In this document: positions 3,316 through 52,400 of the stretch, one piece after another | How positions within the stretch are numbered: position 1 is the stretch's first letter | Layout of the letters: every line of letters starts with the position of its first letter | Source of the DNA: Owenia fusiformis | Taxonomy: Eukaryota; Annelida; Polychaeta; Sabellida; Oweniidae | DNA length: 64,000 nt | Direction of reading: 5' to 3' | NCBI GenBank assembly: GCA_903813345.2 | Contig: CAIIXF020000008.1 | Location: 4,349,341 to 4,413,340 of the forward strand | Translations under genes and position numbers: made by a program | The notes under the pieces: model-generated | Database searches by the model: none | The model's input: the letters and a program-made list of their open reading frames with translations, nothing else | What the model was told of the DNA's origin: nothing

Positions 3316-6300
3316 TTATTTTTTTTTCATAAAAAATTTCCAATATATGAGTACACCTAAAATTATGATCTCGACAAGAATGATGACGATAAGCAGTAGT
3401 TTATTGGTGATGAGCCTCCTATTCATCGTATTGAGGATCCTCCTGCTTCGGGACAAGTTCTCATGGGTGTCCTCCAACTGGAAGAATAGAGAGCATGAGA
3501 TATGGTTAGCGGTTTCAATTTATGGGTTGGTTCATGATTATGGGGAATATCCCTGGGGTGGTTCATGATAGAGGGGAATATCCCTGGGGTGGTTCATGAT
3601 TAAGGGGAATATCCCTGGGGTGGTTCATGATTAAGGGGAATATCCCTGGTGTGATTCATGATTAAGGGGAATATCCCTGGGGTGGTTCATGATTAAGGGG
3701 AATATACCTGGGGTGATTCATGATTAAGGGGAATATCCCTGGGGTGGTTCATGATTGTGGGGAATATCCCTGGGTTACTGATATCATTAGCATTTTATGG
3801 CATTATTCACTTAATACGACATATCGATGTCAAGACAAAAAGCAAACAAGACTTTACCATGCAAAATGCCACCACCTACCATTTGTTGTTATAAGTGTTT
3901 CAGAATAAAATGGATTTTAAAAATTTAAATCTCATTCTCAAAGCAACTGCACAGAAACATTTAAAACACCAAACAATATTTGGATTTGGATTGAACAATA
4001 TTTTCAAACTGTACCTTTAAGTCACAAAAAGGAATATTTGGATGATAAAGCAATATTTCAAAACTACAGGCAAGCATGGGCCCTTTAAAGTTACATGCAG
4101 CTCTATTCAGAATGTCCTCTGCAATTCTTTTAATACCTCTGTAAAATGAGTGCCGGTGGTTTAGCCTACTACAGAGTATTCAAATGTTTACACATTATAT
4201 AATACATTATCCAAATACAGAACTACTCTAATATTGTAAGGCCAGATCAATATTATAGAATCAGGGATAAAACTCTAGAGGCTAAAATAGGTTTGTTCAC
4301 AAGATGAAGTTAAAGACATTTGTGTTCTTTTTAGGACTGGAACTAGGTGTGATGGCCCTACTATTTCTTATATACCATCAGATAACTCCATATTTGAGCA
4401 AAAAGGATGATCGGGCAAACAGTGTTCTTGACAATACACTAAAGAAGAAAACTTGGAAACACAGACTAACAAATATTGATAAATTTAAACTTTTTCAGAA
4501 TGACAAAAATGAGGAACCAAACAAAAGCTCTAACTCTAAAATGATATATGATAACATTATAGAGCAGGGGAAAGTCAATGCCACTGAACGTAAGTTTGAA
4601 CAAACATGCAAGCAACAACAACACAGTGGAAGTAAACAAGGATATATGTCCATGAAGGAATACTACACTCATAATTTCAGACTGCATGGCATTCATTTGG
4701 CAAAAATGAGTACCATCAACTTTACAATATCAACAGCATTTTTGCATTCATTTTCGATTGAGCTTTCAAACATTCTACAAAGATCAGACCCGGAACGAGT
4801 CATGCATCCATTTTTCATGTCACCTGCCATTTTGGAAAATGAAGACGGAACATATGCCCTTGTAGCTCGTTGCAGAAATGTTCCGAGAGAGACATTAAAA
4901 AAAAAGGCACCCACCAATGTTATGGTCACTATGATGTACTCACCCATATTTAAACCCATAAACACGGGTTCAATTCTAGGTATGATCACATCAGAAAGTG
5001 AGAGGAATGGACCCAGGGACCCACGACTATTTAGAATCAGAGAGCAACCATTTATTTTATTTGACATGCAGAATTGGAGAGAGGATTCATTTCACATGTA
5101 TATGCTGTCATTTCATACAGGGGAACTTCACCGGCTTCAGATATACGAAGAAAATGGAACACTGATTCAAATGAGAAAAGCAGAGCGTAACTGGAGTCCA
5201 CTTGTCGACGACGAGAACAACAAACTGTATTTAATATATGGATTCGATCCATTTGTAATCCTGCAGTGTAATCAACTTGACGGCAAATGCAAAATTGTTC
5301 AAAAACAAAATGAGAATTTTGAGCCACAAAAATATCCATCAAGCCTGAGAGGTGGGACCCCATTTATAATGTACAAAAGGCCATATTATGTAAGCACCGC
5401 ACATTCTACCGTATTTTGTGGAGGAATGGGAAGACGTATGTATGGAATTCACATTGTAGTTATCAGTATTATTCCGAAGTTTAGAATTGTATACATAAGT
5501 GCAAATGTAAAATTCCATTCAGAAATACTAAAAAAACAACCAATATTCCCAGCGGCAATATCTTCATTTATTTTCCCGACAACTTTGTTGTTACGAGACG
5601 AAGACATGGCTGACATTGGGGGACATCTCAATGACATTGAAGCCTTATTGCTTCGAGTGAAAGGATTTAGAACAGTCATAGATGAGGTTATACAAATTGA
5701 TGAGGCAGTCCCTGAGATGGAGAGAACAACATATGAGCAGGGGTTCATTCAGAAAACAAATTTTGGATATTCAGACAAGTGACTGTCGGATTGCTTATTA
5801 TAATCTTAAGAAAGGCAAGGTTCATAATTGTAAAGACAGCTTTTTCTAATAAATTATAATAAAAAAATAAATCATTATCGATGAGAAAAGTATAATATTT
5901 GTTGACATAGGAATAGATACTTGTTGACTATACTAGCTCCTGGTATGAATTCAAATATCTCCTAAAATATTTGACAGCAATTTGACCTTGAAAATGTCTT
6001 TAAAAACAATTTAGGAGATGTTACACTTAAGAGTTTTCCTTTAGCGATCCTTTATGAGATTTGAGATGTGTAAAATATTGCCATTGGCATTTTAGAAAAT
6101 CACATACAGTTTACTTGATACATAAACATCAGTCTATAGCCAGGGGCAGACTGGAAGATAAATTTGACCTCAATTGGAATACCAGCAAACTTTTAATAGA
6201 GAAACAATATTAATATTTACCCTGTCTCTTGTTCGTATGAGGGATTCTCTTTGTGTACCAAGCTCATCAATTATTTCTGTTCCTATTTGATCTGTTTCTG

Positions 6301-12300: not shown

Positions 12301-14989
12301 AACATCATTTTTCTTGATCAGTATCACATATAGTTCATGAAAACATATGTCGCTTAGCTCGCCTCTAAAAAGGACACGGAACCTCTTATTTGGACTTTTG
12401 CTCCCACACTATTTAGACCTTTTTTGTGCTTTCAGTATGTAAACCAACATGTAAATGATCTAAGTTCACTGGCCATATGATTTACTCTATACAGCCCACC
12501 TGAATGGAAAAACAGGAGTTTGACAAAGATATGTTGTAGGGCTTTGTATAAAAAACCTCCTACCTCATACCCACCTACCCACATACCGTTATTATACCAA
12601 CGAGTCATTACACATTACAATGCACCCCGTATGCCTTTTTTTATGGATCTGACATCCGTTTAGTGATAAAATAAAGCCAGAATTGTAGAAATCTTAATAA
12701 TTAGAGCTACATTGTATTTTGAGATTTAAAAATCTTTAAAATTAAACCCTTCAATGACTGTATCATGTCCCATGTAGGTGGGTAGGTGGGTATGAGGTAG
12801 GAGGTTTTTTATACAAAGCCATGTTGTAGTACTTACAAGAATGTTTCCCTCTTCAACTCCTTTCTCAACCTCCCTCACCAACCGCTTCCGCTCCTCTGCA
12901 AAATAACAGACCATGAGTTTTAAAGAGATGGTAGCACTAGTATATAATAGATATTCTTTCTTCTGATTCCTTCTGATTATCTGACAAACATATTCTATTA
13001 AGGAATAAAAAAACTGTATCATTCTTTATTGGTAATTTAAAAGCATGAGTGCAAGGTGATCTTCAGTAAGACTACACAAAATAACGGGACACTTTCACTC
13101 CCAACATTTTTACCACACATTTTTACATATCACATAGACCTATATTTATATTAGCTTGTCAATGAGTATACCGAAACTGACATTATAAAATTCCTAGTAA
13201 ATGAGCAATGAAGTATTGTTGAATTACATTCACTGAATTACATTCACTGCATCATATAGAATACATTAAACAAATAATTCTCATTAATACAGTATATCTC
13301 TAATTATAGCTCTAATGTTTTTGTTGTTTGTATAGCTTATTTGATCATGATGTTGCAGTTGACTGTTAAACATTGTCATATTTGCACTCGACACATTTAT
13401 CATAAGAATGGAATCTCAGTAATATCAGTATGAACACACAAGTACATGAGTATGAACACACAAGTACATGAGTATGAACTCAGAAGTACATGAGTATGAA
13501 CACACAAGTGCATGAGTATGAACACACAAGTACATGAGTATGAACACACAAGAACATGAGTATGAACACACAAGTACATGAGTATGAACATACAAGTGCA
13601 TGAGTATGAACACACAAGTACATGAGTATGAACACACAAGTACATGAGTATGAACACACAAGTACATGAGTATGAACACACAAGTACATGAGTATGAACA
13701 CACAAGTACATGAATATGAACACACAAGTACATGAGTATGAGCATACAAGTACATGAGGATGAACACACAAGTACATGAGTATGATCACACAAGTTCATG
13801 AGTATGATCACACAAGTTCATGAGTATGAACACACAGGTACATGAGTATGAACACACAAGTACATGACAAGTACACGTGTTTGGACACCTTGGCCTAAAG
13901 CTGAACACCCTGGCCCACATTTTGAGCACCTTGGTTCAAATTTTATTGCATATAACCCACTTTTGGACACCTCAAAATTTTCGCGCTTGCTACGTTCATG
14001 TTCTGTCATGCAAAAAAAACTGGCGTGACTTCAAATTTTCCAGCAAATGCGTGACAACTACACAAATTGCGGGACAGTTGGATGGCCTGGATTTGGACCA
14101 AGGTGTTCACAATTTGAAGGAAAGTGTTCAACATTTGTAAAGAGTCACTCATTTTATGTTATCCCGAGCCAGGACTATAGTCCTGTAAACATCTCAATCT
14201 TTTGCCTGTACGATTACAACATAGGAGAATTTACTACGCTTCTTACACTACTTCAATAGATTCCTTGGTATTTTAGCATTCTTTTCGTGTAGTTACATCC
14301 ACAATTGTCTGGGTTTATCGGCAAAACGAAGAAATTTTGCGTTTTTGATCGCAATATTTGCATGTAATATTTAACTTATTTCAACCATCAAATTCCTCCA
14401 TTTATTGGTACTTCCAGATCACTTCCAGGCCAGTCAAACGGGGAATCCCCTTTAAATCCAACCGCCATCTTGAAAAGTGATGGAATCTCTCTGGATGAAA
14501 AAGAAAAATGTTCCCGTTCTGCCAACTAACCCAGACAATCGGCGGTTCCAATATATTAGAAGTTACATTTTGAGTTCTATAATGCATTGAGGTAGGTATC
14601 TTAAGTGTAAGGGGCGTAGATAATTCTCCCAAGTTGTAATCGTACAGGCAAAAGATTGCGCACGGGATAAATCTTATGTGTTCCAAGTTGACAGGCCAGG
14701 AGATGAAGTGCAACAGAAATACGCATTCTGATTTTTTTCTGCAAGATATACCTGTTATAGATGAATTTAACATAGGTACAGGATAGATGGTGCTGACTGT
14801 GAACGACAATGCATTATAGGATTTATGACTCAATGCCGTGACTGGTTGGTACAAAATTTTGACATATGAAAATAATTTCAAACACTTACCTCCTCCGCAT
14901 TTCGATATTCTATCATTAACCTTCTGTTTTAAACTTTGAATAAGACTCTCGAGGTCATCCTGGATACCTTCAAATCTCTCTGATGACAT
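3316..14989 (-). CDS. VTI1B: Vesicle transport through interaction with t-SNAREs homolog 1B (Qb-SNARE), six coding exons
   Basis: Coding exons in transcript order are 14890-14989, 12837-12895, 7469-7579, 6676-6729, 6221-6394 and 3316-3477. They join in frame (660 nt) to give 219 residues; I recall the human protein as 232. VTI1B is a Qb-SNARE for late endosome/lysosome and post-Golgi fusion. The N-terminal helical region is about residues 1-95. The SNARE motif is about 115-185, with LLQGTESLNR at 118-127, SHRIAAETDQIG at 135-146 and the expected zero-layer glutamine Q156. A C-terminal membrane anchor spans about 193-215, followed by a short KKK tail. All introns have GT-AG ends. The start is the first ATG in exon 1, with G at -3. 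The last intron (3478-6220) contains another gene on the opposite strand. The second intron holds the large inverted-repeat complex. Identification is by the family's characteristic wording over the full SNARE and tail region, so I am sure of it. Confidence 0.95.
3526..3776. repeat. 31-bp minisatellite, about eight copies
   Basis: The unit reads roughly gattaaggggaatatccc followed by tggggtggttcat and recurs every 31 bp with point differences. It lies in the last VTI1B intron, about 50 bp beyond the acceptor of the last exon. The copies abut directly, so this is not a spacer-bearing array. Confidence 0.9.
4304..5782 (+). CDS. Type II membrane protein with GH130/GT108-like five-bladed beta-propeller domain, single exon
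   Basis: One uninterrupted frame encodes 492 residues. The start ATG has A at -3. Residues 5-25 form a hydrophobic segment after a short MKLK head, with no cleavage site evident, so a Golgi-type signal anchor is likely. A polar stem of about 100 residues follows. The rest carries motifs resembling the mannoside phosphorylase/beta-mannosyltransferase propeller superfamily: GPRDPRLF (D239-P240-R241, matching the EDPR motif whose acid is catalytic in GH130), NWSPL at 296-300, RGGTP at 349-353 and AHST around H367. N-glycosylation sequons include NAT, NFT and NGT. It may act on glycans in the secretory pathway; substrate and activity cannot be told from sequence. It lies entirely inside the last intron of VTI1B, on the opposite strand. 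The lack of introns in an intron-rich genome suggests retroposition or transfer. The fold assignment is moderately sure; the enzymatic role is inference. Confidence 0.75.
   Translation: MKLKTFVFFLGLELGVMALLFLIYHQITPYLSKKDDRANSVLDNTLKKKTWKHRLTNIDKFKLFQNDKNEEPNKSSNSKMIYDNIIEQGKVNATERKFEQTCKQQQHSGSKQGYMSMKEYYTHNFRLHGIHLAKMSTINFTISTAFLHSFSIELSNILQRSDPERVMHPFFMSPAILENEDGTYALVARCRNVPRETLKKKAPTNVMVTMMYSPIFKPINTGSILGMITSESERNGPRDPRLFRIREQPFILFDMQNWREDSFHMYMLSFHTGELHRLQIYEENGTLIQMRKAERNWSPLVDDENNKLYLIYGFDPFVILQCNQLDGKCKIVQKQNENFEPQKYPSSLRGGTPFIMYKRPYYVSTAHSTVFCGGMGRRMYGIHIVVISIIPKFRIVYISANVKFHSEILKKQPIFPAAISSFIFPTTLLLRDEDMADIGGHLNDIEALLLRVKGFRTVIDEVIQIDEAVPEMERTTYEQGFIQKTNFGYSDK
5848..5853 (+). promoter_or_regulatory. 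Poly(A) signal AATAAA of the single-exon propeller gene
   Basis: A canonical AATAAA lies 66 nt past the stop codon at 5782, and another AATAAA-like run follows within 25 nt. It supports this being a real transcription unit independent of the host gene on the other strand. Confidence 0.6.
7629..7780. repeat. Copy of the 'CACCACCTGCCATTTGTTA' interspersed repeat family
   Basis: The core reads ggcattaaaatgcaaaat, then gtcaccacctggcatttgtt, then an imperfect run of 7-9 bp units based on gccaagcg/caccaacc. Related cores, in either orientation, occur near 3855, 23265, 24285, 37000, 52322, 54898 and 59700. Confidence 0.6.
7935..12420. repeat. 4.5 kb inverted-repeat complex in VTI1B intron 2
   Basis: The sequence from about 7940 (gtatgggagcaaaggtc, then gaggcgagctaagcgacata) to about 9520 reappears as its reverse complement from about 12415 back to 10975. 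A further partial inverted copy lies at about 9890-10935 (matching about 8040-9070). Within the arms, the sequences 'ggttgctatggtaacc' and 'tcagatttagatgaaatt' recur several times. Arm identity is high but not perfect. No transposase-like frame is seen. It looks like a foldback element that also underwent a partial duplication. A transcript of VTI1B would carry a very long hairpin here. Confidence 0.8.
12540..12820. mobile_element. MITE, 9-bp target-site duplication, TIR GGCTTTGTATAAAAAACC
   Basis: The 281-bp element has terminal inverted repeats that match for about 43 bp and begin GGCTTTGTATAAAAAACC. It is flanked on both sides by the 9-bp direct repeat ATGTTGTAG (12531-12539 and 12821-12829). 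A 9-10 bp duplication is typical of Mutator-like elements, so this is a candidate non-autonomous member. The right end lies only 16 bp from the end of VTI1B exon 2, just past its splice donor. The larger element at 17388-18173 shares nearly the same terminal sequence. Confidence 0.88.
13425..13866. repeat. 22-bp minisatellite, about 20 copies
   Basis: The unit is close to gtatgaacacacaagtacat plus ga, repeated head to tail with a few variants (gtgcatgag, ttcatgag, gatcacac). Because 22 is not a multiple of 3 and the unit lacks stops, it produces open frames in several phases that are not genes. It lies in VTI1B intron 1. Confidence 0.95.
14158..14675. mobile_element. Palindromic (foldback) element, 'tatcccg...cgggata' ends
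   Basis: Left (atctcaatcttttgcctgta) and right (tacaggcaaaagattg) parts are inverted copies, and an inner pair built on attgtctgggtt / aacccagacaat extends the palindrome. The smaller element at 15892-16050 shares the outer sequence, including the palindrome ggactatagtcc. It lies in VTI1B intron 1, just past exon 1. No open frame of interest. Confidence 0.65.
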
Positions 14990-15155: not shown

Positions 15156-18100
15156 ATGGTTGACGTGGATGTCTTTGTGAGTAACAATGCCTTAATCGAC
15201 ATGGATATCTATCACTTGTGGCTTGATGGCTATTCAGGTAATTGATTCGTTTTTAAAATTATACAATTTGATCAATTATCAGGTTATTTTTACTTTCACT
15301 TTCGGTTTCATGGGCATTCAATCAATATTGCATTTATAGTATAATTTGAATTTATTTTCAGATGTTTAAAATCTTTATCCTTTCGAATATAAGCTTACTG
15401 ACTTGTATCATGATGGGTCCTATGCATAGTCAGGACTAAAAATGTGCTCACCATAAATAAATGACACCTGGATTTTCTATCACCATTTCCAGACGGACAC
15501 CTGTAAATCCTATACGGCATATGGTGTATTATTGATGTTTGACCAATCAGATTTCAGCATTTGGTTCAGCCCCTGTCAGAGAAACATTTTGTGATTGGTC
15601 AAACATCATACCATATGCCGTATAGGATTTACCATTCACCATTTCGCACCATGGTGATTTGAGACTTCATACTTTCCAATAATGTCTAGATACACATCCC
15701 TTAAGTTTTGTATATTTTACATTTTGTATACTCTCATCCACTGATGTATAGCCTCTTGAAAATTCTCTTCTTTTTAACATGGGAAATCCTCACTTCAGCA
15801 AATCCAGGTGTCATTTATTTATGGTGAGCACTGTAGATTCGATTTCTGTCTACTAGATTTTGTTTACACAGGGTTGGATTTATCCCGTGCCTGGACTATA
15901 GTCCTGAGAGAGTCTCAATCTTTTGAAAATCTATTGAAGATCTATTAAATTAGGTATCTTAAGTGTAAGAGGCGTATAAAATTCTCCCATGTTGTAATTG
16001 TACAGGCAAAAGATTGAGACTTTCTCAGGACTATAGTCCTGGCATGGGATGAGGTTGGATATGTTTTGCATTGTAGCTTTTTTCTTCCTGGCTTAATCAT
16101 TGAAAAATAAATTGATTAAATTTAAAGGGGGTAAAAAAAGTTGAGTTTTATGCGAATTTGTGGGGCTTATTTCTTTTTGTCAAAAAATAATAAACTGGTT
16201 GTTTCAAACTTGTCTTCATTCAAATCTTAAAGTGAAAACATCTCTATTGGTATAAGTCTCATCTTAAAGGTTGTATATGACCCCTACTTTCAGACATTCT
16301 CACAACACAATATTTCTTCCAGCATACTTACTTAATCAAAGAATAAACAATAAAATTGTGCAACAACTCATAGAGTATAATTGTAACCACTTTTTGAGAT
16401 GATTTAAACTGAAAAGAGTTCTTTTTTCATCATAATAATTGTGATTACAATGGAATGGCTTCACATATAAACTGATAACCATGGTAACATGTCACATCAT
16501 TCCATCCCTCAATATTGACAGCAATACACCGTTCTGTCCGTGGACTGTTTGGTTCTTCCCATCTCCAGTCTGTATAACTGAAGGGTTTACTTGGCTCATT
16601 TGGATGATCTTTCCAAACCCAATTAGTTTTTGGTTTTGATCGTCCTCCACCGAGTAAGAAATCTGAAATAACCAAACTAATTGTATAGGATAGATAATAT
16701 ATGATAGTCCCTGTAATATTGAAACCAGAGATACAAAATGTTACTCCTGTTTCAAGAGTTGATGTTTTTGTAGACACCATGACGAAAATATTTCTTTCTC
16801 AATATGAGTAGTAGGGGAGCTCAGTGATCTCCCCATGTCACCTTTACCTTCCCCCCTACTAACTTGAATACTGGGGGAGAATACTGGAGTTGAAATAAGA
16901 CCAGTTAATATTTGCTTGGTCTTTGTTTTCTTACATTTGTATTTTATATTTAAAATGTGATTTTTCACTAACATCTAGCAGAGCTGTCAAGTGTCCTGCG
17001 AATGGCGGGATTATCCCGCGAATTTGATCAAAATTAGGCTAATTCGCGTGTCCCGCATTGTCCCGCGAAGTCCCGCAAAATGTGGCTTTGACCTCCGCGA
17101 AATTGTTGCAATCCCCTATATTTTGATTATCTTATCTGATATAAGAAGCTAAGTTTTTGCACTTTTGAGGAGTAAAGTTTACCTAATTTTAAGTACCTAG
17201 CATATGCTGTTGTTTGGTATCAAAATAAAGGGGAAGGGTTCAACTTTCATTTTAATTACGAAAATAGGGATGTAGGTCACAAAGAGTTCCAACGTTGGCC
17301 TTTTTACTACCCGTGTGGCCTTCATCTCAGAACTGAGCAAATGTTAGCAAACGCGAGTTACAATAAATGTACGCTGATATCTAGAAAGGGTTTGTATAAA
17401 AAACCGGGTACCGGGTAGTAAATCCTCCATGCTGGGTTCAAACTTGGTACCCGGTACCCGGTCAAAAAAACGGGTACCCAAAAAACGAAAAAATATGAAT
17501 ATATAACATAATTAGATTATGAGAAAACGTGTAAGATTTGTTTTCCTCTATCATTATGGCCATATTTTCATTGGTTATGGGGGGGGGGTGCGATCGCACC
17601 CTCTCCTGGCTACGCCTATGACATTGTAAGACATAACAATTTACAATTCAGTGGACATTTTGTCATAAATTGGGATAACTTAAATTATGATTAATAATCA
17701 AAATCTTACACGTTGCATCATGCAAATTAACACACGTCACCTCTCTGCTAAAGCAACGATAGCTATTTACAGATTTAAATCATAATCAAAACAATTCACG
17801 TACCAACATACGAACTATTGAAAATAGAGTAAGATTGATTTGTCTTGTTTTTCAAATCGTCTTACAATGTCATTGGCGTAGCCAGGTGGGGGTGCGATCG
17901 CACCCCCCCCCCTTCATTACCAATGGAAATATGACCAAGATGATAGAGGAAGAAAAGAGCCTTAAAATGCTTTTTATTTGAAGCTTCTAGCTGAATTTTG
18001 AAGGAAGTTACATACATTTTTGTAAATTCAAAACAAATCTTACACGTTTTCTAATGATCTAATTATGTTGTGTATTCGTATATTTCGTTTTTTGTTTTTT

Positions 18101-21100
18101 TTTCGACCGGGTACCAAGTTTGAACCCAGCATGGAGGATTTACTACCCGGTACCCGGTTTTTTATACAAACCCTATCTAGAAAATTAACCTCATTCCCTA
18201 TAATTTGATGTAGGTGCATTATATTTGATTAATCAGTATCTGAAAGTTTGATTTAAGTACTTCTACACGCTTTTACATTAGTCACAATCACGCAAATCCC
18301 TTGAATGTCCCGGGACATCCTGCAAATTTAGGTGGATGTCCCGCGAAATCCCGCAAATTTTGGGCACTTTGTCTAAAAAATCTGTCCCTCTATGAAGTTT
18401 TTGGTGGTACACCTGTTAACTGTCCCGCAATTAGGGTGTTTGTCCCTCGAATGGTCCCGCGAAATCCCGCGAATTTGATAAAAAAAATCTCCTATTAGCG
18501 CAATCACGCAAATCCCTTAAATGTCCCGCAAAATCCCGCGAATTTAGTAGATGTCCCGCAAAATCCCGCGAATTTTGGGCACTGGGTCTAAAAAATCTGT
18601 CCCGCGAGAAAATCTTTAGGGGTTGACAGTACTGATCTAGATTTACTTCTACATGGTATACTATTTATGTACAATTTTGTTAATCCCACATTTACTACAA
18701 GTTTCAATCCAAATCAAAAATGAACCATATTGAATGACATTTGAATGTTCTGAACCAAATCTCCACTTTTGCTATCCATAAAACTTCCCCACTAACCTGC
18801 ATTTTCATCATCACCCTTCAGGATGTCTTTAAAGAAGTCATTCTCTTTCTCTGAGTCCACAATGGCGAGGTATCCCCCTAACTTTTTACATCTCCCTCTG
18901 GCCTGCTTGTAAGGTAATCTTGTTGCATAGACAAAGTTATAACAAGACTTGAATTTTGGGTGATACCAGAATCCAACAGGACATCTGGTCGCTATAAAAA
19001 TATAATTTTACATTTTAGATATCATCAAAGAGTTGTTGATTCATGAGAAATTTGTGAGCCCATACTCCAAATACGATACCATATTCTCTGTAATTAGTGC
19101 CTCCTAGCACATGCACACCACGCTTCACCACAAATTTCCCAAAGAAATTTAAGTGGGCAGCAATAGAGTACTAACATTAAACTGCTGTAAACCTGACAAA
19201 TTTTGTAATTTTGGAGTTTGATGCATCCTCCCGCGCGATAAATATCTTTCATTGGGTGCTTCCCACATCGTACTAAACTAATATTTTCTCAAAATAGTCC
19301 ATGATGAATCAAGGAAATGTTCAAGTTTAGAACTTTGTTCCGACATTTTACCAAGACAGCTTCTGCGGAGGTTTTCTGCGCACATAAGCGTTGTGAACTT
19401 TCTAGTTTCTTCTCAACTTTCTCCTTATTCTCACAAATTTTACACGAAAAAATGATCTATCATTAAATTAAAAAGAGAAGGTAACTTTGAAGTGACATCT
19501 AACAGCTTAGTAGATATATTGAAGATAATAGGGGAAAACGATTCCTTCAATTCGAGGGGCTCTACTGGGGAATTCTTCAATCACTGTCAATATTGTCTAG
19601 CTGAGATTCTTGCATGATCCTTGCTTCATTTTAGTGATCTTTACCATAATCTCTCCAATAACGATACATGTCATTACGTAATGTAAAAAATATGCTGTGA
19701 CTTCATTTTGCTGTTGTAAATAAGGAATTCTTGGCAAGAAAAATTGCCAAATATGAAATTCCAGGGAATTTTGACTTCTTTCATATATGGGTGCTTATTA
19801 GAAAGGTCTGAAGGGTGTATTTTCAATTTTCTAAGCACCCTGGACGCTAATTGCAGAGTATATGGTAGTTTTATAAGAGTTGTCATTTTATTATTACTTT
19901 TTCAAAGTGCATATTGTGTTAACTTGGTGCTGCTGAGTGTCGCATAAATCTTGTTTTGTTTCCAACTAGATTTTTACATATAGTTTAGACCATAAATAAA
20001 TGAGTAGTCATGTTGGTTTGGAAGCCCATAGTTGTCATTATTGTCTAGATACATATCCCATTTTTTTATATTTTACATTTTGTATACTCTCATCCTCATA
20101 TGTATCTGATGGCCACCTGAAAATTCTCTTATTTGTAACATGGGAAATCCTCACTAGTAAATCCATGACTCATTTATTTATGGTCAAAACTGTGCCATGT
20201 ACATACCATTTAGTTTTAAATGTCCACTATAGTGATCCAATACAATTATCTCAATATCAAACTTTTTGTTGTCAGGTCCCATAAAATCTGTTCTCATTAG
20301 AGTATCTGTGCCAACGATAGATCCAGTTCCTATTTTCACCATTTTCTTGGACCAACTTATCCAAAATGGTTCATATTTTTTACATGTGAGTAACTTCTTC
20401 TTAAGTTTGGCAAGTGAAAATGCTAGAGCAAATTCTCGCTCCATAGCATTGTCATTAGATTCCCCATCAAGACTAATCAATATGGATTGTTCCCCAGAGG
20501 TATCTTGGATGTATATGGCCAAGACTGCACAAGTCTTCACCTCAAATATGAGGTGGTTTGTCTCTCCTACAGCTAATACTGTTGCCATTGTTATATCTGC
20601 CACAGCAACACCTAGTGCGTAATATATACCATTTTAAAAATGAATTTTAATATACTAAATTTTATAGTCTCTCCTAAGCCGGCAACGGCTTGATGTCCAG
20701 GATACATGTGAGACTTTAATAAACAAAATATACATACAAACATACATACATATAAGACACATATGCATTTAATTCAAGATATAGTAGATATACTTAACCC
20801 CACGTTTCTTTGTTAAATATATTTTTTTCCCATGGACTTTCAACTACTGTACTTCTTAGTTCTCTCTCCTAAGGAGAAGGTGTTCACTTAAGAGAGGCGG
20901 TGTTCAAAACATAGGTTTTACAGTAGCTTAATGAAATAGGATAAACACACACCTCATGCTGTCACATCAAAATGGCTTATTTGACTGCATCAAAATTCGC
21001 TGAAGTATTTATTATTTTACTTACTCGGATGGCGCTCAACTCTCCACTCTCCACTTCCACCAAATACTGAATCGAATATAACAGCATTGACTCTAGACGC

Positions 21101-24100
21101 ATTGACATCCATCTTCTTTAGAACTAGCTCTCCCTCCTTTTCATTTACTCCTGTTCCAACTTTAACATTACCATCAGTCCAGCTTATCCAGAAACTTCGG
21201 AATTCACTACAGTTCAAGAAATCATCTCCATATGTCTTGGCCCATGGATTCTTACCTTCTAGAGGTTTATAAATCTCAATTCCCTTTCTTATCTTTCTTC
21301 CAAATCTCATATGGCCAATGCCTATCTTGTAGATAGTAGACGATTTGTTTTTTCCTTTGGCTTCAAGTTGGATAGAAACACTACCGCATGTTCTGACTTG
21401 GAAGTTTACACTTGTGAGGTTACCAATTGTCCACCAAACAGGATCAGTTACAGGGTGTTCAGTTATTATTTCAATCCAATTTTCTTTGAGGCCAGCTTTT
21501 AATGGAAGATATAGTATATATTAACCTAGTTTTGAGAAGGATCAGTAGTTTCATTTCATGAAGTTCTGTAAAATACATTATTAATTTTTGACAATTTGAC
21601 AAACATTTTCAAAACTTTTTCATGTTTCACAATTTTTCATTATAACTTGTAGCATGTTTTTTTCTCCAACCAAAATGCTTTACTGGTATAAAAAATCTTT
21701 TTGAGATCTTGCAAGCTATTTTTAAATGCAATGATGAATTCTGTTCATATAAACAATGAACAAATATTGTTGATATAAAGTTAATCCATCTAAGCACAAC
21801 TATTTTTTCTGGAACTTTCTGAACATGACACCCAATTTCTTCAAAGCATCAAAGATTCTCATTTTTTATTTTGTTCTTTACATTTTTACAATATAATTTA
21901 ATTTATCATTGAGAATTATATTTATATTTTACTGATATTTTATCCGCCCTTATTGTTTGAGAAAAATGATGAAGCTTTTAACGTTGCAAATAAAACAAAA
22001 ATTGTGTTAAAAATAATAATAATCTTTCTTACCATTGCCGATGGAGAAAACTGCTGTTAGAATTAAGATGAACCACAGGAGAGTACTCAGTCCAGCCATA
22101 ATCTTATATTGGAGAAAAATACTAACAAGTAAAATAGATATGCTTTTAATAATTGTATTATCAAATGTTCTATAAATGCACAATTCAAAAATAAGGAAAG
22201 AAAATGTCATAATAAGTCATCTTTTTTTGCACATTTCCATTTTAACAATTTATCAAATATATCCAACTACAATGTATATGAAGAATAAACAGACTTTTGC
22301 ATACCTTTAGATGTGCAACACTTTCACTTGCAGTTGACTCTTCTAGTACTGTTTTTATAGTATTCTTCAGTTTTGTTTGTACATGTAGTACTCCAGTATA
22401 ATACTCTATATAATACTCTGTATTAATGTAGTTCTAAGTGTATTTCCTAACTATGTTTTCATTTAGATATAAATAAAATGTATTCCCAGTGTATTTGCTA
22501 GTACTTATGATCAAGTTAATTTTATTGCATACTAGTTTGTTAATATGACATCCTATAATTCACAGCTTTTTATAATTGATTGTCTTTATTGTTATATTTA
22601 ATGTTAATAGTGCTAAATGTAAATATACCTTCACTATATCCGTATAAATATTTCTGCATTATGTTTATTGTTTAGGGCCGTCACCAGAGAGTTGTGTAAT
22701 AGGGTATAAACGAACTCAGTTTAAAGTAACTTTTTAGAGAATCATTTGTAAAAATTATTTTGCGGGGTGATGGCCCCAGTGACCTCCAAACCTGCCTTGC
22801 CCCAAGCTGTTATTCCCTGCTGTTACATGAAAAAAATGTTACAAAAATCATGAAATGGGCCTATTCTAATAAATAATATTTATGGTAAAATGCTCCAGTT
22901 ATCATGACATTTGCAGTTGAACCATTGTTTCATGCATGAAGAAGATAAAACTAAAACAATACATATTTTATGATTAAATTGTTTATTCAGCAACAACACA
23001 CAGCAGATACTAAGAATTATATTTGATTCATCGCATCCTTGTTTAGAATCTGTATATGGATCAATTCATGCAAAATCACAGGTGAATTGATATGTCACCT
23101 ATTTTTAATAATGTGCAAGTGTGAAACCAATTTGTAAACTAGTTAATACTAGTGGTGTTATGTACGATTGTCATCTAATTGAGCTCATTTAGGATGCACA
23201 TTCTGTCATGAATTACATCTTCAACATGAAATTCAAAAATATCAGCAGAACAAACTTTTTTGTGGACGGTGTTTGGCATTCGGCATCTGTAACAAATGGC
23301 AGGTGGTAACATTTTGCATGTTAATGCCTTTGCCAGTCACCCCCAATGCCCTCCCCTTTCAGATGAGCCTGCATCTTAATTCACAAGATTTTAGTTGTCC
23401 GTATCTCGTTTCACTGTGTATAATGCAAGAAAAATTTAGACCTGTTTTGGAAAAATTTATGATTAAGGTATTGTATTCCAGCTCATGAAGCCACAAGAAT
23501 CCAACAGAAGCGTGGTATACAACAGCTATATGGTGCAACGTCTGATATGCTTATTGAAGACATCATGGATCACTATAGAATGTTCACAATGCTCGAGAAA
23601 TTCTTACAAACTCCACAGAAGCTTGCCAGTCAGAAAATCTTCCAAATAAAACCCGAAATGCAGAAGGCATTGATCGAAAAGTAAGAAACATTTTGCCCAT
23701 TTGTTTGTTTCTTTGTTTGTACAGGATATTCATAATTATTTTATTTTCCTTTTTACTGTGTCTGATATTCTCAGTTTTTTTTCAATAATGATTTAATGAA
23801 ATTAATGTCAGAAATCTTTCTTTTACACATTAGCCTTTCTTTATATACATAAGGGAATCATTAAATCCAAAACATACACTCAAATTATCAATTTTTGCTT
23901 ATAAATGTTATCATCGAATCTGATTAATGATTTAGTTTCTATTAAAGAACTGGTTTTGAATTAATATTGCATTGGCTGCTATATCTGTACATAAATGGAT
24001 ATTCTTTGTTCAGGTATTATGAATTCAACCCACTGGTCGTACGTGAGCTTCTGGGCAAGAAATTGTCGTCTAAACACCGCAAGGACCTTGATGATGTCAG

Positions 24101-35577: not shown

Positions 35578-35912
35578 TCATTGGAGACCTCCAGGATTAC
35601 TATACAGGACATCTAGGGCATCCTGACGCTTGATTGCTTGTAAATCAGCCCCAAGTTCATCAACTGTATAACCTTGTACTTTGGGGTGATCCAAGAGACG
35701 TTTGAAAAAGCTATATGTGCCCGGATATCCAGTTTTGATATGTGTAACATCATCATAGTTCAAACCTCGACGTTCAGCGATACGTTCCCAGTTCGGAAGC
35801 ATTGCTCTATAAGAGTCTAGCAAAACGCTGAGTTCATCTTTAGTTGCAGCAGGAAGGTCGACCACTCGAATAGTATCCATTGTTTCACTTTTAAATTCTT
35901 CTATCTGTCCAT
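35578..35912 (-). CDS. Terminal exon encoding a death domain (exon C)
   Basis: A clean acceptor (attccag) at 35913 leads in phase 1 into an open frame of 110 residues ending at TGA 35578. After a short acidic lead (GQIEEFKSETMD) come six-helix death-domain features: PNWERIAERRGLNYDDVTHI, TYSFFKRLLDH, YTVDELGADLQAI and KRQDALDVL. Death domains mediate homotypic assembly of signalling complexes (Toll/IRAK/MyD88, TNF receptor, apoptosis). No upstream exon could be linked, so the parent protein is unknown. The neighbouring exon at 36057-36466 encodes a paralogous domain with the same entry phase and its own stop codon. Either alternative terminal exons of one gene, or tandem duplicates, would explain this. 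Confidence 0.7.
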
Positions 35913-36056
35913 CTGGAATATTTAAATGAAGATATTCAGGCACATTTTACAAAATGTTTGGATGATCATGGAGTTTTTGGCCAAGCAATGCCAATTGAAC
36001 TATACACTAGCCAACTGTTTGTCTCTTTAGCTGACTTTTGGATGTACAGCTGAGTA

Positions 36057-36466
36057 TCAATGGGGCACTGGATAACGACTGTAGGGTACAAAGTTATTCC
36101 TATGCTTGGATTGGCCTATGCGATTGGATTGGCCTATGCGATTGGATTGGCCTCTGAGATTCCACATACTTGAACCATTATTGAGGTGATTCGTGAGCAT
36201 GTTTATAACATCTGGTCTATTGATCACTATCAAGTCATTTATCAATTCTCCAACTGTATAATTTTGTAAGTTTTGGTGGTCTAGTAGTGTCTGGAAAAAG
36301 CTATATTTCCCGGGATATCCAGTAGCTATGTGTGCTATTTCATCAGAGTTCAAATCATGTTGTGCTGCTATTTCCCTCCAATTACCACGGGGGACATCAG
36401 AGTCCAAGAAAACGGTCAATGTTGTTTTTATTTCCTGTTCAAGGTCACGGACTTTGACTTTCAGCT
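36057..36466 (-). CDS. Terminal exon encoding a paralogous death domain (exon B)
   Basis: The acceptor tatttcag at 36467 opens a phase-1 frame of 135 residues that ends at TGA 36057. A short coiled-coil-like lead (ELKVKVRDLEQEIK) is followed by a death domain: GNWREIAAQHDLNSDEIAHI, YSFFQTLLDH, YTVGELINDLIVI and NRPDVINML. It aligns with exon C throughout (TGYPGxYSFFxxLLDH in both). The C terminus carries GQSNRI repeated by an 18-bp tandem duplication (36106-36156). Function as an adaptor or receptor tail is inferred from the fold only; upstream exons were not found in this window with confidence. Confidence 0.7.
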
Positions 36467-37837
36467 CTGAAATAATAACATTTGATTGGGGAACCTCACC
36501 TCTTGAAATCCAAATCACATTGCAAGTAATCAGGGTTCCAAGAGATCACCGAAAACCCATGATTTAAACAATCTTATGTTACTCGATGGAATCGACCAGA
36601 TGGGAGTATAAATAATCTGAATAATCTGGCTTTACATCATTAAATATTGCAAATGAAGTTGAAGTGACATCATATTTGAAAACTACATGTAAGGTGCAAT
36701 GTTGTTTTAAAAAGCTTTTATCAACTTTAAAATTGAATTTTCTTTGAAAATGTGACTTGGTCCGGGAAATTCCCCATAGACCCCATGTTACAAAATCACA
36801 ACAAGTGAAATATCTCTTCTTGTATTAGACTGACAATATTTTCTATTACTGGCCATATTATTTAACCCCCAAAAGTGGTGAGATATTGTTTAAAAAGATA
36901 TTTTTTAACTTGCCTAAGATAACCAATTTTTACAAAATCGTCTGAAAGTTTCAGAAGTTCAAATCTGACTTAAGATTGAACTCATGATATCGTGAGCAAC
37001 TAGGTGGTGACATTTTGTCATGTTAATGCATTGTTTTAATTTGCATAACTATCAGATACACAAGGGTAATATGAAACTTGAACAACTAAAACAGATGAAT
37101 ATTCAAGTTAAGGGAATTTTCTATATGCCTGCTATGTTATCTGACCCAAATTAGCCACTTGGTGGTGAAACTGGTAACCATCTACTAGCATCTTGGTTAT
37201 TGGTTAAAGAGAAAAACAGTGTTGAATGTAGTTCACCATATTGCCACCAATCTTTTGAATTTTGAATTTTTTATTGTAATCATTGGATAAACTTGTTTTG
37301 ATATTTGATATCAACTCATCGATAAGAATGGTATCACTCAAAATTATCTGATATTTTAATTACTGAACATATTTCAAATAATGAAAAAATGATAAAACTC
37401 AAAAAGGCCTGAAAGCCACCTGGTGGTGAAACTGGTTTCTACCCTCTGGCACTTATGTATTTTGACTCACTTGATACCACATGTATTAGTTTATTAAGTG
37501 AGCCTCACCTGTCCATATTATTTATATAATAGATTGATAGATGTCACTCCAAAAATAGGTCTCATTTAGTTCAGAATAGCATCAATTCAGGTGATATAAG
37601 AATGAAAAAAATTACCTGAATTTAGAGACAAATGTCTCAAATCTAAATTGTTACAATGTGATTTATCAAAGTTAATATAAATAGAATTTTAAAAAATGTG
37701 AATACAGTTCTAATTTGAGATGACCATTTTGATATCATTGGTAAATATTTTGAAGATGCTAACATTTTTAGGGGGAAATGGTGATGTAGTACACTGTACT
37801 TGTTAGAAAAGATGTTTATTTATGAATATTTTCAGAA

Positions 37838-46432: not shown

Positions 46433-49400
46433 CTAAAAGTCATCCAGGCCAGGTAAGTTTGTATCATCGTTAACACTCTCTGGCTCAAAATCTACTTCAC
46501 TAAACTCATTATCTGATGAAGGATCAAATCCTTGTTTTACACTTTTCTTTTTAGATGCGTTTGATTTCCCAGATTTGTGGCTCTGTGTTTCAATATTATC
46601 TGCCTCGTCATCAAGGGAGATGTAAGTCATATTATGGCCTAGTTCGTCAATTTCCTCATGTTGTTTGGAACTCTTTTGCGATTGGATTGATTTCACTGAT
46701 TTTGACGATTTGATAGTTTTGTCTGATTTAGTTGATTTTGTTTCAAAGCCATCTAAATCTGATATCTTCATTGAAGTATCCACATTAGATCTTGGACTGT
46801 CTATCAAAGTTGCATCTTTACTCGCACGTTTTCTTGGGGTAGGTTTAGGCTTCATTGTTGACGATCCATTACTCACAATCGAGCCATTCATTGATTGGTC
46901 GAAATCATTTAAGAGATAATCTTTCTGCTCAAGAATACTTTTCGGTTTACTGAAGTTTGATTTCACTTCAGAATGGATGCTCTCACTGATGATGTCACTA
47001 TGTTCTTCTACGGGATCAAGTGTACGCATGTTGAACACATCTTTAACTTGGTGCTCTGGGACTCCATTGTAAACCTTTGCTTCTATATTATTGTTACTCT
47101 TATTCATGCTGTCAGTGTCAAGGTCATCATAAGCATTAGATTTTCTACTTTTCGATTTATGGCCGTATGTAGGTTTGTTGTCATCAGATTTAGGTCGATA
47201 TGAGACATTGTTGTAGTTGCTTGAATCACGCTGGGTTGCCATGCCGACATCCTCTGGGTCGTTGGTTGGTGCTTCAATGATTCCAAGATCTTCCCGGAGT
47301 TGGTTGAGAAGAGTTCTCATTCGACTCTGAAAAACAACAGGACAATATTATAGGATGGTGGTCTATGTGAATTAAGCATCTTTAATCAAGGGACAATGTA
47401 AATTATTGTTTAATTTTAGGGGACAATTTTCCATTGGTTTTAGGCTGATATCATGGCTTTAAATCTGACTGGAGTGGGAAGGAAGCGATTTCTGCAAGAA
47501 ATTCAAAAAAATCTGCAAGATTTATTTTTTCATGAAAAAGTTTACAAATAAATCATCGAATGAATAAAGGTCCACAGTGTGGTAAAATCTGTTAGGTCCT
47601 TTTTTTGATTTTTTGAACCGATGTGCTGAGTTGTGAGATCTACTCAAAAAGGCATAATGTTATCAACATGCAAAAGTCAATTTTTGCGGTAAATCAAGCA
47701 ATGGAGGTTAATGTAATACTAACCCGGTCCCTAAGATTGGGTGATCATGGTCATGTATCTGAACAATGTTTACAATCAGTTTTAATTTAAAAATCATCAC
47801 ATAATTCTAAAGAATTTATCATGCAAGTTTGTAGCTTAAAAATTGGAGAAGTCCCATAATATTAATTCACGAAAATACACATAATACAAAATGGATTGTT
47901 TTAATGAGGAATTTATTCATAAAAAAGTACTTACAATTTTCAGCTCTCCTTTTCGTTGTTGCACATGTTTTTCAAATACTTGTAATAATACTCTGGAAAA
48001 GACAAACAAATAATATTAAATCAATCATCATAGTTACCAAGTTTGAAAAATATGGAATTCATCAATAAAAAGAAAACAATGGCAACAATCAATATTGTCA
48101 TTTTATGCCTCAATATGCCTGAAAATGCCTATAATCATTTTATGATGTAAATGTTATAAGTTCAGAGAGACTGAATTCAAAAGGCCAAGACTCGCACCAG
48201 GGATCCCGTATTGTGAGATAGTGTACAGTACTACAGCGTGGCCTTACAAATTTATTGTTCAGTGGGGCTTGAAAAAGCTCCCTAGTCAATCCTATTTGTT
48301 TTAAGGATTTTTTAATTTTGACCAATCTTAGAGCAAAAGCCTATTGTCACTTATCAGAGAATGGGTGCTAATTTCTGTATGCCATTACAAGCCAATAGCT
48401 GTAAATCAATTAAACGCTACCCAATATGCCTACCAAATATTCTCCTATTTAGTTACAATGTTAAATCTGAGTGTATAAGTTTACCTGTTTGTAAAGATGC
48501 CTCTAGCAAGTATATCATTGGTCACATCTGATACAAACTCAAGATACCTCATCTCCTCCTCCCTGAAAGACAAACACTTTAACCATCATTCTAAAATGTT
48601 GGCCAATACTTGTTTTTATTAACACACACATATTTTAATAAAAAATTAGTACCGTGGGTACTGGGCTCACATGGTGACAGAAAAAACTGGATATAATTTT
48701 TTGCTGATTTTTTGTAACAAAATTATTTCAAGCCACTTGCCACTATTATGGACTGACTGAGAGACAGATGGACAAATCGATGTTAAGTAAAATGGCTTAG
48801 AAAAAAACGGATATAATTTTTTGCCAATTATTTGGAACAAAATTATTTCATACAACTACTCTTTACAGTGACATGGCTTTTTGCAATGCAAGACACCTGA
48901 AATTATTTGTAAAGCTAGGAAATAGGCCAAAATTGAATTTCGCGAGACAAAAATGGCGACCATTTTTAAATCAGGCAAGCTTTTGAACCAGGAGTCATAG
49001 GGGAGTTTTTTTGTATTGATGTTGAACAAAAATAATGTGAAACTGGAATCCTATCTACAGAGGTTTTAAGCAAATGGTTCAAAAGAGGATTTCGCGAGAC
49101 AGATGGACAAATCAATGTTAACTAAAATGGCTGAAAATAAAAAAACAGATATAATATTTTGCCGATTTTTTGTAACAAAATTATTTCATACAACTACTCT
49201 TTACAGTGACACGGCTTTTTACAATGCAGGACAGCTGGAATTATTTGTAAAGCTAGGAAATGGGCAAAAAGTGAATTTCGCGGAACAAGGATGGCGACCA
49301 TTTTGAAAATAGGCGAGCTTTTGAACCAAGAGTCATCCACTGGGCTGGATGGACATCGAGTACAAAATCGCCTTAGATAAATTAATGTTCTTCCTTATGT

Positions 49401-52400
49401 TGATAACACTACCGGTAAAAAATATTTACAAGCAGGTCTTTCTTTATCGAGCTACGGAATTCCAATATAATGGTCACGATGGTGCTGTGTCACCACTTAA
49501 TACAATGTGGAATGTTTTAAGCAGATTTAATCTTTTAGATGCTGCAACTAATATGATAAACACGGGTGTCTACCCATCAAAGGGAATATGGCGAAAATTA
49601 GTTTTAGGTAGGCTACGTCAAAGCCAAAATGCAACGTTTATGATTAAATGTGCTATAAAAAGTGCAACACATTTGTATGTAAGTGTAAAATGCTTTGCCC
49701 AGCCACTTAAATGGTGGGCACTCAGTTTCAAATACCCTAGTGATTTAAAATATTGCAAATTAATGGTCAAGCTGCTTATGAATCAAACACTTAATGGAAA
49801 TAAAAAATGGGGTGACAGAAAATGTAATATATGTGATACTGGCGAAATAGAAACATTGGATCACTTTTTACGTTTCTGCAATTCCATAGATGCGGAAAGA
49901 GTTGCACTTCTCAATTTATTTAGAATTGGTAATGATGATATTATATTTCAAACTTTCAAATCAGACAATGATGAAGCAATGATTTTAAAAGCCAAAGCTG
50001 TATTCCTTATGTATGCAAAGCGTAATATGCTTATGCAAATGTGATTTTATGTAAATATGTTAATGCAAAACAAAAAATTGTAAATGTACTCACAATATAC
50101 ACTTGTGGTAATAAAGGATACAACAACAACAACAACATAGGGGAGTTTTTGTATTGATGTTGAACAAAATTAACTTAAAACGGAAATATTATCGACAGAG
50201 GGTTTAAGGTAAATGGTCCAAAAGTGGATTTTGCGAGACAGATGAACAAATCAATGTTAACTAAAATAGCTGAAAATAAAAAAAATGGATATAATTTTTC
50301 GCTGATTTTTCGTAACAAAATTATTTCATACATCTACTCTTTACATTGACATGGATTTTTACAATGTAGGACACTTGAAATTATTTGTAAAGCTAGGAAA
50401 TGGGTCAAAAGTGAATTTCGCGAGACAAAAATGGCGGCCATTTTGAAAATAGGCGAGCTTTTGAACCAGGAGTCATAGGGGAGTTTTCTGTATTGATGTT
50501 GAACAGAAATAACTTAAAACAGGAATCCTATCGACAGAGGTTTTAAAACGTGCCACTGTTATTAACGGAAAGTGGATTTCGCGAGTCAGATAGACAAATC
50601 AATGTTAACTAAAATGGCTGAAAATAAAAAAATGGATATAATTTTTCGCTGATTTTTTGTAACAATTTTATTACATATATCTACCCTTTCCATTGACATG
50701 GATTTTTACAGTGTAGGATACCTGAAATTATTTGTAAAGCTAGGAAATGGGTCAAAAATGAATTTCGCGAGACAAAAGTGACGGCCATTTTGAAAATAGG
50801 CGAGCTTTTGAACCAGGAGTCATTGGGGAGTTTTCTGTATTGATGTTAAACAGAAATAACTTAAAACGGGAATCCTATCGACAGAGGTTTTAAAACAAAT
50901 GGGTCAAAAGTGAATTTCGCGAGACAAAAGTGACGGCCATTTTGAAAATAGGCGAGCTTTTGAACCAGGAGTCATAGGGGAGTTTTCTGTATTGATGTTG
51001 AACAGAAATAACTGAAAACAGGAATCCTATCGACAGAGGTTTTAAAACGTGCCACTATTGTTGACGGACGGACAGACGGATGGACAGACGGACGGACGGA
51101 CGGACGGACAGACAGACGGACAAGTGATTGATTGCAAAAGCTCACCATGTGAGCTAAAAATATCAGGTGACTGTTTTCTAAGTGTGTCTTAATTAAACTG
51201 TGAAAAAATGCAAAAAGTAGCTATTAATCAAAAGGTGTTTCCATTTTTTACTAAAAAATTGAACCAGTCATTTTCATCTTATATTATGGTACTTTTTATT
51301 CGGATGACAGTATACAGTGAAACCCTGAACCTGTGAAGACTGCATTAATTTGTTGAACCTTATTGAAATTCTTTGACAGAATAGTTCTATAATAAACTGC
51401 AAAAACCTCTTTTCAAATGTTAATAATCATGATTAAAACCTCTCCAATAAACTGATATTAGATAGGCAAGAACGATTTGAAAGGTGGATTTTTCCATAAA
51501 TGCGTTTCAGCTGATTAATATAAAGATGAAATTGATCAATTTCATTCTAAAATCTGTTTTCAAATTGTCTTAGAGAGTGACCAGATCAGCTTGACCTTGG
51601 AGTTTTAACACATCACATCAATTTCACTCCCAAATATGGAACGTGCAAAAATAGAGCTGTCAATCAAAAATTGAACTGTATGCAAGTGAAAGTTATTTTT
51701 AGCTTGATTCTGGATGTGCTGGTCTTGAGCTTTTCTCAGTATCTGTAGATTCATTTCAATGCAGAAAATTAACTTAAAAACATTTTGAAAATTGAGTAAA
51801 TACATATCATTTTTGCCTACTTGGAACAAATATTCAAACAAACTATTTTTGATAAAATGAAAGAAATCAACTCTCTTCCATAAAGTCTAGATATGCAATG
51901 CAAGACAAAATTGTTCAAACAAATAAAATTCACAGTTGATTGGTTAGAAGGTTGATTGATTAATTGGTCATTGCTTGATTGATTAATTGACAAAATTGAG
52001 AAGTTCGATTAATAACTGAGAATGCTTTTTTCATTACATTCTTATGAACAAACACAAATTAAAAAAGTTTGTTTCCAAAATAACAATGCAATATTTCACT
52101 GCACGCCTTTAAATTCCCAGTCATTTCTCAGATTTGAAAATTTCCTGACCATTTCAATTATTTTTTTATGGTGAATCATTCTGTGACTGTGGAAAGTCTG
52201 AAAATACAACCGAGGGGGAGTACAAGTACTTACTCATCTGTCACTCTCTCCATTGTAGTGGATGATTTACTCATTGGCCGACTGCAATCATACAACATAA
52301 AGGTGTTACAACTAATTATAAACAAGGCATTAACATGCAAAATGTCACCACCTGCCATTTGTTACTGATAACACTGACGACCAAACAACAACCACTGAAC

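Follow-up and report, generated by a model that had tools for sequence, protein, structure and literature searches.

A candidate gene for a probably secreted FAMeT and C-type lectin protein nested antisense in the first intron of FIBP in Owenia fusiformis

The window analysed here is a stretch of 64,000 nucleotides from the annelid Owenia fusiformis (contig CAIIXF020000008.1, positions 4,349,341 to 4,413,340), and all coordinates below are those of the window. It carries the FIBP gene on the plus strand and, in FIBP intron 1 on the opposite strand, a five-exon gene that we refer to as the nested gene. The predicted product joins a tandem of modules of the farnesoic acid methyltransferase type (FAMeT; Pfam family Methyltransf_FA, PF12248), the second of them diverged, to a C-terminal C-type lectin domain (PF00059). 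The gene model, the first FAMeT domain, the lectin domain and the residues of its binding site were observed directly and are described first; what the protein may do is discussed afterwards.

Gene structure and nesting in FIBP

An earlier note on this DNA had proposed a minus-strand gene of five exons and 451 residues between 16445 and 22099. This model was rebuilt from the sequence and stands (Table 1). The spliced coding sequence comprises 1356 nt including the stop codon and is translated without interruption into 451 amino acids. All four introns (537, 413, 1215 and 2134 bp) have GT-AG ends and lie in phase 1, and their GC content ranges from 24 to 37.5% as against 39.6% for the coding sequence. 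The host gene is FIBP: PF05427 is matched at E 1e-76 by four of its exons joined together, and the human FIBP protein aligns collinearly on the plus strand, beginning in exon 1 and reaching 31443 with a short and weak final match (17 residues, E 0.004). Because FIBP intron 1 extends from 15238 to 23481, it encloses the whole nested coding sequence, which is antisense to the host as the note had claimed.

Table 1. Coding features of FIBP and of the nested gene, in window coordinates.
Feature	Position	Strand	Description
FIBP coding exon 1 (host)	15156..15237	plus	ATG at 15156
FIBP intron 1	15238..23481	plus	8244 bp, contains the entire nested gene
FIBP exon 2	23482..23680	plus	end set by GTAAGA donor
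Nested gene coding exon 1	22033..22099	minus	start codon and signal-peptide-like hydrophobic leader, residues 1-22
Nested gene coding exon 2	21025..21495	minus	FAMeT domain 1 (PF12248), residues 23-180; 45.4 bits, E 8.9e-12 alone
Nested gene coding exon 3	20207..20611	minus	diverged FAMeT-like domain 2, residues 180-315; 14.4 bits alone
Nested gene coding exon 4	18797..18991	minus	N-terminal half of long-form C-type lectin domain; PF00059 match to joined exons 4-5
Nested gene coding exon 5	16445..16662	minus	C-terminal half of lectin domain, EPN 416-418, WND 433-435, stop codon

Open reading frame length was considered as proof of the gene and rejected, because simulated windows can reach the same lengths: among 100 simulated 64-kb sequences, the longest frame had at least 167 residues in 10 and at least 149 residues in 21. 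What lifts the nested gene above chance is its profile matches (E of about 1e-14 and 1e-15) together with the agreement of its splice phases. Judged from its sequence, the gene is well-formed and looks real. When the nested protein was searched against the window with tblastn, it returned its own exons, a match between the two FAMeT exons (E 1.25e-4) and one further match at E 1.3. Pfam also listed Hjc for the full-length protein (E 0.14, under its cut-off), which was judged to be a chance match.

The start of the protein resembles a signal peptide, its most hydrophobic 15-residue segment beginning at residue 7, in line with the secreted start that had been proposed. Exon 1 was the sole candidate found when five intronic and upstream stretches between 16663 and 23480 were scanned for a leader followed by a phase-1 donor. 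The five N-glycosylation sequons of the protein fit a secreted product, and secretion is predicted. The modular layout is symmetric (1-1), each FAMeT copy being encoded by a single exon and the lectin domain by two. The earlier note had held that all introns are in phase 1, which is the case, and that each domain starts at an exon border; this second part does not extend to every border, since intron 4 cuts the lectin domain. Exon shuffling may account for the origin of this phase 1-1 layout.

Antisense nesting is in itself a widespread and ordinary arrangement in animals: intron-nested genes, often on the opposite strand, make up about 6% of Drosophila, 2.1% of C. elegans and 0.5% of human genes (cited in PMC3786989). 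The position of the gene inside FIBP is probably incidental. Several repeats accompany it. An interspersed repeat of about 185 bp occurs in two copies some 4359 bp apart, one 3' of the nested stop codon (15650-15834) and one in nested intron 3 (20009-20193). Intron 4 holds an imperfect long inverted repeat (17380-18181) that resembles a miniature inverted-repeat transposable element, with arms of 76 nt (99%) and 64 nt (86%) plus inner arms, and it is adjoined by direct repeats of the CCCGCGAAAT type (18285-18623).

The FAMeT modules and the lectin domain

PF12248 matches the whole nested protein at E 3.2e-14. FAMeT domain 1 alone scores 45.4 bits (E 8.9e-12) and passes the Pfam cut-off of 24.2 bits, with a match that covers residues 47-177, whereas domain 2 by itself reaches 14.4 bits (E 0.033) and misses it. 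The earlier note had named a failure to find PF12248 in residues 28-177 and 181-313 as refuting; the first of these domains was recovered, while the second, which misses the threshold, can be recognised chiefly through its resemblance to the first, so that the refuting outcome applies by half. This relationship is supported by a Smith-Waterman score of 84 between the two domains, a value reached by none of 1000 shuffled sequences (best 53), and by a two-sequence blastp comparison in which only 18 residues were aligned at E 3e-5. The two exons share 25% identity, a common core FWISW...VK.GTG and, in register, a pair of cysteines (C59/C118 and C207/C256). Sequence comparison makes domain 2 a divergent, FAMeT-like module related to domain 1, whose own score does not place it in the Pfam family. 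Sequence searches of solved structures with the FAMeT domains gave nothing convincing, the best E values being 0.52 for domain 1 and 0.018 for a two-row profile. No relative at E <= 1e-3 was obtained when the FAMeT exons were compared with prokaryote genomes (59 pattern matches) and viral contigs (61), a result that has no bearing on animals.

FAMeT was originally described from Crustacea, and the enzyme activity of the family has never been reliably demonstrated in vitro (PMC10015273). An enzyme role for FAMeT was weighed and set aside. FAMeT modules also occur in CPAMD8-type proteins (PMC9363628). According to a study of sea star footprint proteins, no role of FAMeT is known, molluscs included (PMC9382459).

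The lectin domain matches PF00059 with 57 bits against a cut-off of 22.6 (E 3.7e-15). A sequence search of solved structures gave 81 matches at E <= 0.001; the 60 listed are ranked by whole-chain scores, summed over repeated domains. Among the matches listed, the top relatives are lymphocyte antigen 75 (LY75), mannose receptor 2 and fish type II antifreeze proteins, and the bivalve lectin codakine is also present at E 1.2e-9. The domain contains six cysteines (C318, C331, C349, C425, C438 and C446), which fit the pattern of a long-form C-type lectin. The sugar-site motifs EPN and WND, which the earlier note had named, are kept at 416-418 and 433-435, and E423 lies two residues ahead of C425, the fourth lectin cysteine. 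In an alignment to rat mannose-binding protein A (MBP-A), E416, N418, E423, N434 and D435 correspond to the five ligands of Ca2+ site 2. For Ca2+ site 1, the MBP-A ligands D188 and D194 face S419 and R424, and the alignment does not place the stretch that holds the other two. It is probably only the main Ca2+ site that has been kept.

The EPN motif accompanies mannose/glucose specificity, and codakine, an EPN/WND lectin without Ca2+ site 1, binds mannose via one Ca2+ at site 2 (PMC12842671). Since the site 2 residues are kept and codakine provides a precedent, Ca2+-dependent binding of the mannose type is the best prediction for the lectin domain, and it is reasonable to expect that this domain recognises glycans.

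Other features of the window

Two adjacent open frames on the minus strand (35578-35946 and 36057-36545) match the Death domain (PF00531, E 8.4e-8 and 3.2e-5) and are possibly exons of one tandem Death-domain protein. Also on the minus strand, the frame 53589-54164 is SPATA7/HSD3-like (PF15244, E 1.2e-14). On the plus strand, a frame of 491 amino acids (4307-5779) has a start like that of a type II membrane protein; it has no Pfam match above cut-off (best E 0.046), and its motifs are suggestive of glycosyltransferases or GH130-like proteins. The segment 14834-15031 on the minus strand (MSSERFEGIQDDLESL) is a possible first exon of a gene lying head-to-head with FIBP; its product has no Pfam match at E <= 0.1 and would resemble a Vti1-type SNARE. 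A tandem array of 22-bp units (13313-13955) leaves long open frames rich in HTHVLVCSYSCTCV, and these coding-looking frames are probably repeat artefacts. Finally, the plus-strand frame 49325-50044 contains a CNIC...HFLRFC motif and has no Pfam match at E <= 0.1; the motif is suggestive of the C-terminal end of reverse transcriptases of non-long-terminal-repeat retrotransposons.

Interpretation of the nested protein

We think it probable that the nested gene is functional and encodes a secreted multidomain lectin with one-Ca2+ binding of the mannose/glucose type and two non-enzymatic beta-sandwich FAMeT modules, acting in the recognition of non-self or of a matrix. The leader would direct the protein out of the cell. 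The long-form lectin domain at the C-terminus would hold one Ca2+ at the main site (E416, N418, E423, N434 and D435) and through it bind glycans of the mannose/glucose type. The FAMeT pair at the N-terminus would consist of beta-sandwich modules and not of methyltransferases, each perhaps with one disulfide, and might add valency or multimers, or else a second contact with a matrix, glycan or protein partner. The product would then most likely serve in body fluid or mucus as a pattern-recognition or agglutinating lectin, or else as a matrix or adhesive lectin. We rank recognition in immunity or at mucosal surfaces first and a part in a matrix or in adhesion second.

Several points weigh against this interpretation. 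The model is drawn from DNA sequence, and expression and purifying selection are presumed. In the 1044 nt 3' of the stop codon, the sole AATAAA/ATTAAA motif lies about 625 nt away and within a repeat; at the other end, the frame stays open for 39 codons 5' of the chosen start, with an additional ATG there. Domain 2 is under the Pfam cut-off and may have lost its function. The scallop lectin AiCTL-3, although it bears EPN, bound lipopolysaccharide, peptidoglycan and glucan but not mannan, and sugar binding by SPL-1 and SPL-2 needs no Ca2+ (PMC12842671). With regard to the FAMeT modules, silkworm BmFAMeT6 has been linked to juvenile hormone titre (PMC10380277). The fold models of exons 2 and 3, each built with the other exon as the only alignment, are of low confidence, with mean predicted local distance difference test (pLDDT) values of 54 and 61 and predicted template modelling scores (pTM) of 0.54 and 0.57, respectively. 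In Foldseek searches, 44 of the 1596 matches of the exon 2 model had E <= 0.001 and 37 of these 44 were coronavirus spike chains, and none of the 1144 matches of the exon 3 model reached E 0.001.

The remaining seven of the 44 exon 2 matches are sugar-active enzymes (levan fructotransferase, kappa-carrageenase and a putative glycosyl hydrolase), and the best fold matches listed for exon 3 are galectin-8, spike chains and glycosidase modules. Both low-confidence models resemble folds of the beta-sandwich type, among them GH32 modules, kappa-carrageenase and galectin-8, and a methyltransferase is named in neither model's best 50 matches listed. These matches were rejected as an identification of the FAMeT fold because the models are poor and the listed query template modelling scores lie between 0.28 and 0.55. 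The models lean, weakly, towards a galectin- or concanavalin-like module rather than a methyltransferase.

An appreciable, if minor, chance is left to a structural protein of a matrix or adhesive, secreted like those of shell matrix, mucus, byssus or tube feet, whose lectin and FAMeT domains bind mineral or matrix glycans and not microbes. FAMeT is found in sea star footprint proteins (at least six named ones, at least two of which have two copies each; PMC9382459), in the abalone shell protein UP5 (PMC6003135) and in mussel shell-repair genes (PMC8194122), and perlucin, a protein of abalone nacre, is a C-type lectin (PMC6003135). The kept sugar-site residues, however, suit a matrix role and a recognition role alike, and the sequence of the window gives no sign of the tissue of expression or of mineral association.

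We consider it improbable that two adjacent minus-strand genes were misjoined, namely a FAMeT-FAMeT gene (exons 1-3) and a separate C-type lectin gene (exons 4-5). Unspliced exon 3 reads through for seven more residues and then meets a stop, so that a FAMeT-only isoform could arise by intron retention, conceivably like the crustacean proteins with two pfam12248 copies, and an interspersed repeat lies within the 1.2 kb that separate exons 3 and 4. The joint between these exons is nevertheless GT-AG and in phase 1 on both sides, a phase-1 acceptor opens exon 4 just ahead of the lectin domain, and no leader exon followed by a phase-1 donor was found on scanning the gap; agreeing phases and the lack of a second leader favour one gene. 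A recent pseudogene or silent duplicate carried in the intron, to which the diverged FAMeT domain 2 might point, is very unlikely in view of 451 codons without stop or frameshift, four intact splice pairs and the presence of the cysteines and calcium-site residues, and the introns show that it is not a retrocopy.

The nested protein, taken as one functional product, is a multidomain C-type lectin protein of a familiar kind, here with FAMeT modules, and both of its halves are known with other partners. In the comparisons that follow, DUF3421 is presumably the same as the DM9 domain. Tandem FAMeT modules are likewise found in crustacean proteins with two pfam12248 copies, and insect pfam12248-DUF3421 proteins also carry an extra C-terminal module, which is DUF3421 there and a C-type lectin domain here (PMC10015273). 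Unlike both groups, the nested protein ends in a C-type lectin, and its second FAMeT lies below the Pfam cut-off. With codakine and other bivalve EPN/WND lectins it has in common EPN, WND and, probably, the main Ca2+ site only; a figure legend of a review on these lectins gives bivalve lectins a signal peptide, lectin domains and a transmembrane region (PMC12842671), whereas here two FAMeT modules stand in front instead.

In C-type lectin domain-containing proteins of bivalves and other animals, the lectin domain is joined to other modules as in the nested protein, and most such metazoan proteins are attributed to species-specific domain arrangements. The partners named include WSC, sushi, scavenger receptor, apextrin, immunoglobulin and CUB, and the word 'farnesoic' is absent from the main text (PMC10140915). 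The sea star footprint proteins are secreted, multidomain and FAMeT-bearing like the nested protein; their FAMeT partners include EGF, hyalin, WAP, antistasin and others, and 'C-type lectin' is absent from the main text (PMC9382459). No fusion of FAMeT to a C-type lectin domain was found in the portions of open papers that were consulted, and a literature search for the two Pfam families (PF12248 and PF00059) together returned no paper. It is plausible that the FAMeT-FAMeT-lectin architecture is unusual.

A further proposal, which we regard as doubtful, makes FAMeT a module of galectin- or concanavalin-like type that binds glycans or a matrix and was fused on more than one occasion to an unrelated mannose-binding module (DM9 in insects and a C-type lectin here). 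A locust and the medfly are reported to have DM9 alongside FAMeT domains, and the oyster protein CgDM9CP-1, with two DM9 domains, binds D-mannose (PMC5712788). Such repeated pairing would suggest that FAMeT itself serves recognition. If this were true, the nested protein would act as a lectin of dual specificity, and the name 'farnesoic acid methyltransferase' would mislabel a recognition module.

Secreted proteins from several groups of invertebrates contain FAMeT, whose name refers to an enzyme activity without reliable in vitro proof. To these proteins the nested gene adds a clear model of FAMeT joined to a C-type lectin whose sugar-site residues are present. The joining to a lectin of the mannose type points to recognition outside the cell and offers a simple binding test.

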